Of a DNA stretch of 64,000 nucleotides, positions 62,966 to 64,000 are shown piece by piece. The position numbers and the translations under genes are program-made. This DNA comes from Dethiobacter sp. (lineage in GTDB: Bacteria; Bacillota; Dethiobacteria; Dethiobacterales; Dethiobacteraceae). The notes under the pieces were generated by a model. It was not told the DNA's origin, made no database searches, and was given only the letters and a program-made list of their open reading frames with translations. How positions within the stretch are numbered: the first letter of the stretch is position 1; the number at the start of each line of letters is the position of its first letter. The stretch covers positions 1 through 64,000 of the forward strand of contig DYEY01000057.1 of NCBI GenBank assembly GCA_020725465.1, in the 5' to 3' direction.

Positions 62966-62980
62966 AAAACCAAAAATATA

Positions 62981-63010
62981 GCCGCCTGAGGACAGGGGCG
63001 GCTTTTTTTT
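62981..63010 (+). terminator. Terminator of the fadNAE operon
   Basis: GCCGCC and GGCGGC pair across 10 bases and are followed by eight T residues. Confidence 0.9.
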
Positions 63011-63011
63011 A

Positions 63012-63041
63012 TTGGCATATAACACGTCAATTCGTTATAAT
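63012..63041 (+). promoter_or_regulatory. Promoter of coaE
   Basis: TTGGCA and TATAAT with an 18-base spacer, 25 bases before the coaE ATG and directly after the fad terminator. Confidence 0.65.
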
Positions 63042-63065
63042 AGTCTTGGAAAAGGAGGGGATTGG

Positions 63066-64000
63066 ATGCTTATCTTGGGGCTTACCGGAGGAATTGCAAC
63101 GGGCAAATCAACTGTGGCAGAAATGTTGGAAAAATTGGGTGCGTACCGTATTGACGCAGACCGGATCTCCAGAGAAGTTGTACAACCCGGCATGCCCGCC
63201 TGGAGGGCGATTGTAGACCATTTCGGACCGGGCGTTTTGTTCTTTAACAGGCAGCTGAACCGGCACGCTCTGGCCTCCATCATATTCCAGGATCCCAAAG
63301 AAAGGGCCAAGCTGGAAGAAATTACGCATCCGCCTATAAAGGATATAATTCGTGAACAAATTCTCATTGCGCGTAAATCCGGTGCCAAGGTGGCACTGCT
63401 GGAGGTACCGCTCCTGTATGAAACCGGTCTGGCGGTTCTTGCCGACAAAGTGGTGGTGGTGGTGGCCGACGAAGAAACCCAGATCCAAAGGATGCTGAAA
63501 CGCGACAACCTGAGTAGGGAAGAGGCCCGTCTGCGTATAAAGGCACAGATGTCCCTGGCCGAAAAAGTAAGGCAGGCTGACTACGTGATTTATAATACCG
63601 GAACACCCACTGAGCTGGAGACCCAGGTCAGGAATCTCTGGGAGGAGCTGTCAGCGCTGAAGCCGGCCGTCGCCGAAGCGCCGGAAAAAACCATCATCTG
63701 GAGTTCCGACAATGAACAGGTTGCCAGGGTAACAGATGAGGGAGTGGTGATACCGGTTGGCCCCGGTATTGCCAATATTACCGCCAAAACCAGTGAGGGC
63801 GGTTACAGCGCTTCCTGCCAGGTGAAGGTACAGGCTCCCCCGCAGCACTCCATCTTTGCCCTCTCCTGTGCCACCCCGCTTTTAACCGCCAGCAGCAACG
63901 AACGCGTAAATTTCCAGGTGTCGGTGCGGCCGGTGGCGGTAAAACAGCTGGGTTACGATTCCGTCAGCCTTAATGTGGCGGTATACGGCCCGGCGGAGGG
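63066..64000 (+). CDS. coaE: Dephospho-CoA kinase fused to a BIG2-like Ig domain (incomplete at window end)
   Basis: At least 311 residues without a stop. Residues 1-199 are a complete CoaE: P-loop GLTGGIATGKSTVAEML, DADRISREVV, EVPLLYETGL and LKRDNLSREEA. It phosphorylates dephospho-CoA to CoA. Without a stop the chain continues through a short linker (LSALKPAVAEAPEK) into TIIWSSDNEQVARVTDEGVV and GPGIANITAKTSEGGYSASC, the second half of a BIG2 Ig-like domain, then a further beta-rich region (FALSCATPLLTASSNERVNF). BIG2 domains are normally secreted adhesin or cell-wall modules. ATG follows AAAGGAGGGG. Confidence 0.9.
   Translation, partial: MLILGLTGGIATGKSTVAEMLEKLGAYRIDADRISREVVQPGMPAWRAIVDHFGPGVLFFNRQLNRHALASIIFQDPKERAKLEEITHPPIKDIIREQILIARKSGAKVALLEVPLLYETGLAVLADKVVVVVADEETQIQRMLKRDNLSREEARLRIKAQMSLAEKVRQADYVIYNTGTPTELETQVRNLWEELSALKPAVAEAPEKTIIWSSDNEQVARVTDEGVVIPVGPGIANITAKTSEGGYSASCQVKVQAPPQHSIFALSCATPLLTASSNERVNFQVSVRPVAVKQLGYDSVSLNVAVYGPAE

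Follow-up and report, generated by a model that had tools for sequence, protein, structure and literature searches.

At the end of a 64,000-nucleotide stretch of DNA from Dethiobacter sp., here called the window, a forward-strand reading frame (63066–64000) passes without a stop codon from dephospho-CoA kinase (CoaE) into a stretch resembling the BIG2 domain. This raises the question of whether such a join is genuine and, if so, how an essential CoA-making enzyme came to carry Ig-like domains and what these might do there. The window makes up positions 1–64000 of an 86,800-base contig (G000:C48); contig coordinates continue the numbering of the window, and contig 63066–65969 corresponds to L006:3066–5969.

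Extent and layout of the fusion gene

The preliminary description of this locus, made from the window, reported an in-frame fusion of CoaE to BIG2, and this is borne out by an open frame and by matches to PF01121 (CoaE) and Big_2 on one chain. Reading beyond the window, as that description advised, takes the gene through five further repeats and a C-terminal piece resembling BIG2 strands A–B to a stop codon at contig 65969, a single gene (63066–65969, + strand) encoding 967 amino acids. The CoaE domain occupies residues 1–195 (63066–63650) and is joined by a short linker to strands C–G, the latter half of a BIG2 domain, at residues ∼201–256 (63666–63833), an assignment based on Pfam, alignment and AlphaFold. 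Five Ig-like repeats of ∼133 amino acids each, X1–X5, follow at residues 259–925. X1 (residues 259–389) begins at 63840 and crosses the end of the window at 64000 to reach contig 64232, whilst X2 (64233–64628), X3 (64629–65033), X4 (65034–65438), X5 (65439–65840) and a last piece (residues 927–967; strands A–B and a variable end at 65844–65966) lie beyond the window on the same strand. The array thus appended to CoaE comprises ∼770 residues. The original view of the tail as BIG2 is therefore right for the part adjoining CoaE and wrong for its bulk, which consists of five copies of a different Ig-like domain.

A strong RBS-like sequence, AAGGAGGGG (63052–63060, + strand), read directly, precedes the ATG at 63066. 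Immediately 5′ of coaE lies a promoter-like site, TTGGCA-18-TATAAT (11/12; 63012–63041, + strand), and 3′ of the upstream acyl-CoA dehydrogenase gene a terminator-like hairpin (62980–63003, + strand; L006:2980–3003), which is suggestive only, promoter- and terminator-like patterns of these kinds being no more or hardly more frequent than in shuffled sequence. Together these elements suggest that the fusion gene is a separate unit. On its other side, a gene for an SLT (lytic transglycosylase) protein (contig 65995–66693, + strand, beyond the window) starts 25 bases past the stop codon of the fusion gene. At 232 amino acids (L006:5995–6693), this SLT protein is ∼45 residues longer than that of the second fusion-bearing genome introduced below (187 amino acids), and its frame passes through a terminator-like hairpin at L006:6643–6664; its original stop codon may have been lost.

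A fusion shared by two genera

The window genome is a draft of 78 contigs, which would leave room for an assembly chimera or, as first suggested, a stop codon near 63660 missed through sequencing error. Among 19 family genomes searched, however, one from a second genus also has the full-length fusion, with 51% identity over residues 1–962. This genome (G014; MAG Dethiobacter sp. CROMO_A_105, contig JAGXRN010000056.1) is a separate assembly, also lacks a stop codon at the junction and has the same neighbouring genes in the same order around the fusion. Since the same join is present in two independent assemblies, an error of assembly or base calling is ruled out, and the probability of an artefact is negligible. 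Although the fusion is known from these two genomes only, both of them drafts, there can be hardly any doubt that it is real and inherited.

The fusion is rare. Sixteen of the 17 other genomes of the family encode a CoaE of 200–205 amino acids without a tail, and the family search gave no CoaE match in the seventeenth (G015). Across the class, 88 of 97 genomes have a match of any kind and two carry the fusion. In a sample of the phylum, 364 of 398 genomes have a match, and at least one carries the fusion among the matches listed; these were ordered by E-value, such that a second full-length fusion would rank near the top, and G014 lies outside this sample. When two short peptide patterns taken from the tail were scanned against 84,980 named species, a search that diverged fusions would escape, the one full-length match was the G014 contig itself (L048); the other 78 loci match mostly over one or two Ig-sized stretches. 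In some genomes of the phylum CoaE lies within frames of 290–514 amino acids (G437:C9, 483; G351:C5, 514; G111:C29), with matches ending near residue 197. One long frame (299, in G091) was considered as a further fusion and rejected, as an ordinary CoaE is preceded in it by upstream sequence.

Gene order indicates how the tail arose. The preliminary description proposed that a deletion had joined coaE to a downstream secreted-protein gene, and recommended comparing the neighbourhood of coaE in related genomes. In 15 of 16 relatives within the family the slt gene directly follows the stand-alone coaE; in G009, the remaining one, a 203-amino-acid CoaE is followed by the start of an SLT-like frame, at which point the contig breaks off. 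The fused genomes both retain slt as the next gene, after the tail. A deletion is ruled out by this conserved coaE–slt order, and separate coaE and BIG2 genes, which had been named as a finding that would speak against a fusion, occur at this locus in none of the relatives looked at. The tail was instead inserted at the coaE 3′ end. The two fused genomes pair in a CoaE tree (SH-aLRT 99) and in a quickly built tree from six genes of the neighbourhood (SH-aLRT 100), where G009 joins next (98); with the pair sisters in both trees, one gain is enough. A piece of a secreted-type gene would thus have been inserted at the end of coaE, before slt, in the shared ancestor of two genera within the family, replacing the last few residues of CoaE.

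The CoaE domain and its precedents

By its motifs and fold, the fused CoaE is an intact dephospho-CoA kinase domain for which kinase activity is predicted. PF01121 matches residues 2–180 with an E-value of 1.2e-57 in the window part, and in the full protein scores 191.8 bits (cut-off 27), whilst TIGR00152 scores 178.7 bits (cut-off 65.55). The P-loop GGIATGKST (residues 8–16) and the catalytic D30-A-D32 of the DXD motif (residues 30–32) are present, and in an 18-row CoaE alignment D32 is invariant and D30 nearly so. The top fold match (VIA) is PDB 2f6r, with a Z-score of 20.7 over 196 residues and an rmsd of 2.5. No second CoaE was found in the window genome.

CoaE is part of a larger chain elsewhere. 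In the animal bifunctional CoA synthase (e.g. PDB 2f6r), CoaE is joined to another enzyme of the CoA pathway, whereas its partner here is a set of non-enzymatic Ig domains. Among CoaE proteins with an additional C-terminal domain, the closest precedent is that of Mycobacterium tuberculosis, where, as in the present fusion, an N-terminal CoaE and an extra C-terminal part share one chain (PMC2765170). The same paper, which also describes the DXD motif of CoaE, reports that the single C-terminal UPF0157 domain is needed for CoaE folding, being required for a soluble and active enzyme, and that a C-terminal GST can substitute for it (PMC2765170). In contrast, the present fusion carries a five-repeat Ig array with a split BIG2 domain, and the CoaE proteins of its relatives are without either. 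The profile NF002879 (PRK03333), which by our own reading stands for the CoaE–UPF0157 type, falls short of its cut-off of 215 at 187.7 bits and covers only residues 1–194, corresponding to model positions 1–192 of 395. Literature searches at the level of titles found no paper on a CoaE–Ig fusion; one listed paper that mentions both dephospho-CoA kinase and an Ig-like domain is on DNA phosphorothioation.

A BIG2 domain apparently divided between the two ends of the tail

The first strands of BIG2 had been described as absent at the junction, and the Big_2 match is in agreement, as residues 203–253 align with profile positions 31–79 of 79. This profile (PF02368; cut-off 22.8 bits) scores 20.5 bits in the window part, 23.9 in the full protein and 34.1 in the fusion protein of G014. 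The contiguous A-to-G order of a BIG2 domain is thus not seen; strands C–G stand next to CoaE and an A–B-like piece lies at residues 927–959. Sequence comparison makes it most likely that the missing strands A–B are the ∼33 last structured residues of the protein, and so have been moved rather than lost. The stretch after CoaE aligns with the second half, and the last piece, LALDRKSVVLTAGGQPVTLKAVPVRAQQ, with the first half, of complete BIG2 domains of two other genomes (G018 and G012).

The support for the A–B half differs between the two genomes. With a BIG2 profile built from 78 other domains, the score is 7.2 bits for the last piece of the window protein, a value attained in 3 of 2000 shuffles and in none of 561 scored X-repeat slices; for that of G014 it is 3.5 bits, which 25 of 2000 shuffles attained, as did 10 of 600 scored slices. 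The sequence evidence for an A–B half at the C-terminus would accordingly be graded moderate in the window genome and weak in G014. The C-terminal piece alone has no Pfam Big_2 match, and joining the halves in domain order brought no gain over shuffles (73 of 1000 as good for the window protein, 884 of 1000 for G014), a result that may reflect a long loop and is nonetheless negative. Conservation offers a separate argument. Between the two genomes the A–B half (residues 930–959) is 47% identical and the C–G half (210–256) 53%, comparable to 30-residue windows of the X repeats, which average 45% (s.d. 12), whilst identity at the ends of the cut loop falls to 8% (197–209) and 0% (960–967). This is the pattern expected if the halves are folded and the ends are free. 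Taken together, split halves of a BIG2 domain at both ends of the tail are moderately supported, and the balance tips slightly towards a folded domain.

The inserted piece would have run from the B–C loop of one BIG2 domain, through the five X repeats, to the B–C loop of another BIG2 copy; alternatively, both ends would derive from the same domain, which would amount to a circular permutation. In common with the BIG2 domains (PF02368) of secreted bacterial proteins, the fusion matches over strands C–G and, more weakly, over A–B. It differs from them in a domain order permuted over ∼670 residues and in its carrier, an enzyme without a visible leader. A BIG2 piece also occurs in G015, which has no CoaE match, within a short frame of ∼75 amino acids (L150:10885–11058, in G015:C66) that is perhaps a gene remnant.

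The X repeats and structure predictions

Repeats of the X type are sparsely distributed. In the phylum sample 10 of 398 genomes carry them, the window genome included, and X-like matches within the class occur in G003 and G064. Among the carriers judged by eye, a set other than L179–L181, a hydrophobic leader is visible in G003, G426, G389, G390 and G473, and at the loci of G203, G291 and G064 the start of the protein is not clearly visible. The domain of ∼133 amino acids is scattered among Bacillota proteins (L173–L181, L133, L149), and Pfam hardly detects it. The Pfam match of X4 to InlK_D3 reaches 14.2 bits, under its cut-off, no named family was found for the repeat, and a sequence-profile search of the PDB gave weak matches only (best E-value 0.008, ColH). 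Elsewhere in the window genome the X repeat has no match at E-values up to 1, for which reason a donor copy within this genome was rejected. Two other contigs of this genome, G000:C9 (L043, L044) and G000:C49 (L045, L046), hold very long Ig-type frames of 2172 and 2238 amino acids, in which BIG2 matches are weak and all under the Big_2 cut-off.

Although the domain is the same, the repeats of the fusion are unlike those of secreted Bacillota proteins, which show at most two tandem copies, in that there are five, they stand on CoaE and they contain more cysteine. Fusion repeats hold 15 cysteines in 1336 residues, as against 2 in 1810 elsewhere (Fisher p = 2e-4, with repeats that are not independent). 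Seven of these 15 share one alignment column (column 11), being present there in 7 of the 10 repeats that the two genomes have between them (L006:3840–5840 in the window genome). Other Ig-type reading-frame pieces of the window genome have 0–8 cysteines per ∼1000 residues. The cysteine-rich repeats of the fusion would suit a reducing cytosol.

Structural models give the X repeat an Ig-like sandwich fold, which is uninformative on function. For X5, the Ig-like domains of HAP2 and C5 give Z-scores of 9.7 and 9.2 (VIA), indicating fold class only, and a Foldseek search with the whole model returned multi-Ig proteins, including, at TM-scores of at most 0.3, the S-layer proteins SbsB and EA1 and complement C5, again informative on fold class only. 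The full-length AlphaFold model, built from 18 rows of which 16 cover CoaE only, has a mean pLDDT of 76.7 and a pTM of 0.29, so that domains are seen and their arrangement is not; it places strands at 934–937, 941–945 and 955–958 with middling confidence. A tail-only model (two rows) has a pLDDT of 57.9, its C-terminal half unfolded and the last 41 residues under 50. As the two runs disagree on the C-terminal half, closure of the BIG2 domain is neither proven nor excluded by them.

Cellular location

By eye, the N-terminus of the fusion protein shows no hydrophobic leader, in keeping with the absence of a signal peptide noted at the outset. The same description had raised the possibility of a second start after residue 199. 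Four in-frame start codons after residue 190 are preceded by a purine-rich stretch; no hydrophobic leader comes after any of them, and the strongest candidate, a GTG at residue 228, has no start codon as its counterpart in G014. An internal start exporting the tail behind a leader of its own was rejected on these grounds. The lack of a visible leader and of conservation at residue 228 means that the product should stay in the cytosol; coupled with the finding of a single CoaE in the genome, it also makes it most likely that the enzyme is cytosolic with its array attached. A cytosolic product is, on this evidence, highly probable.

Possible roles of the tail

The reading that we consider best, with a probability of roughly 0.55 as a whole, is that of an inherited CoaE–Ig chimera with a split-BIG2 joint, its tail serving as an arm for assembly or tethering. 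The Ig array would act as an arm on cytosolic CoaE, and strands A–B at the C-terminus would pair with strands C–G next to CoaE, thereby folding the split BIG2 domain. Pairing within a chain would close the array, whilst pairing between chains would join CoaE units head to tail. The outcome would be an assembly or a tether for CoA synthesis, perhaps also an aid to the folding of CoaE. An assembly role for the tail is offered tentatively, and the proposal of a working joint at the split BIG2 domain, by which the array loops or links CoaE head to tail into a chain, more tentatively still. A possible analogy is provided by the pilins of the chaperone-usher pathway, in which, through donor-strand complementation, an incomplete Ig fold is completed by strands from elsewhere, be it another part or another subunit. 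Completion in the present case is putative, and differs in that two strands, A–B, at the C-terminus would be involved in a protein without a leader seen by eye. At the locus followed, no gene neighbouring the fusion is of the chaperone-usher type.

Other explanations of the tail give it a lesser role or a different location. It could be a C-terminal folding or solubility helper, or a regulator of CoaE in cis, the split BIG2 domain being a scar with no part in assembly. Such a helper has a C-terminal precedent in the mycobacterial CoaE–UPF0157 (PMC2765170), and would fit a fused CoaE that is not relaxed. In quick trees with unequal gene sets, the ratio of CoaE end-branch length to that of neighbouring genes is, by our own arithmetic, 1.4 and 0.8 in the fused pair and 1.7–3.4 in five others (G004, G009, G016, G017 and G018). 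The CoaE of relatives nevertheless manages without a tail in 16 of 16 cases, and five repeats together with both BIG2 halves, both of them kept, exceed the needs of a folding helper; this explanation is regarded as unlikely, if deserving of serious thought. A surface module is less probable again. Here the tail would function outside the cell, following an internal start, proteolysis or unconventional export, and CoaE would be a carrier gene only, as might be supposed from the X-domain relatives, whose carrier proteins look secreted and have leaders or wall-associated parts. The frame has no leader to match, the start at residue 228 is not conserved, and the high cysteine content of the repeats, within the limits given above, fits the reducing cytosol.

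The tail might, finally, be a harmless passenger on an essential gene, and it does diverge faster than CoaE, with 45% protein identity between the two genomes as against 74%, and is known from two genomes only. For such a passenger pN would be expected near pS. Over 763 codons, identity in the tail at codon positions 1, 2 and 3 is 60, 67 and 34%, with pN at 0.37, well below a saturated pS of 0.77; the corresponding values for CoaE are 80, 86 and 43%, with a pN of 0.17 and a pS of 0.75. The tail is thus under purifying selection, which argues against a passenger, as does the maintenance of ∼770 open codons in both genera. Repeats X1, X2 and X4 of the window protein best match the same-numbered repeat of G014 (38, 45 and 56% identity), whilst X3 and X5 best match X4; the 56% retained between the X4 repeats likewise speaks against a passenger, which is considered very improbable.

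The locus demonstrates that an apparent fusion artefact can be settled by a single independent genome. If the reading preferred above is right, an extracellular building block has been recruited into the cytosol on an essential enzyme and kept across two genera, and its conserved split domain leads to a simple, testable claim on enzyme assembly by fold complementation. If true, this would represent strand complementation in the cytosol, derived from a surface protein and organizing an essential CoA-making enzyme.
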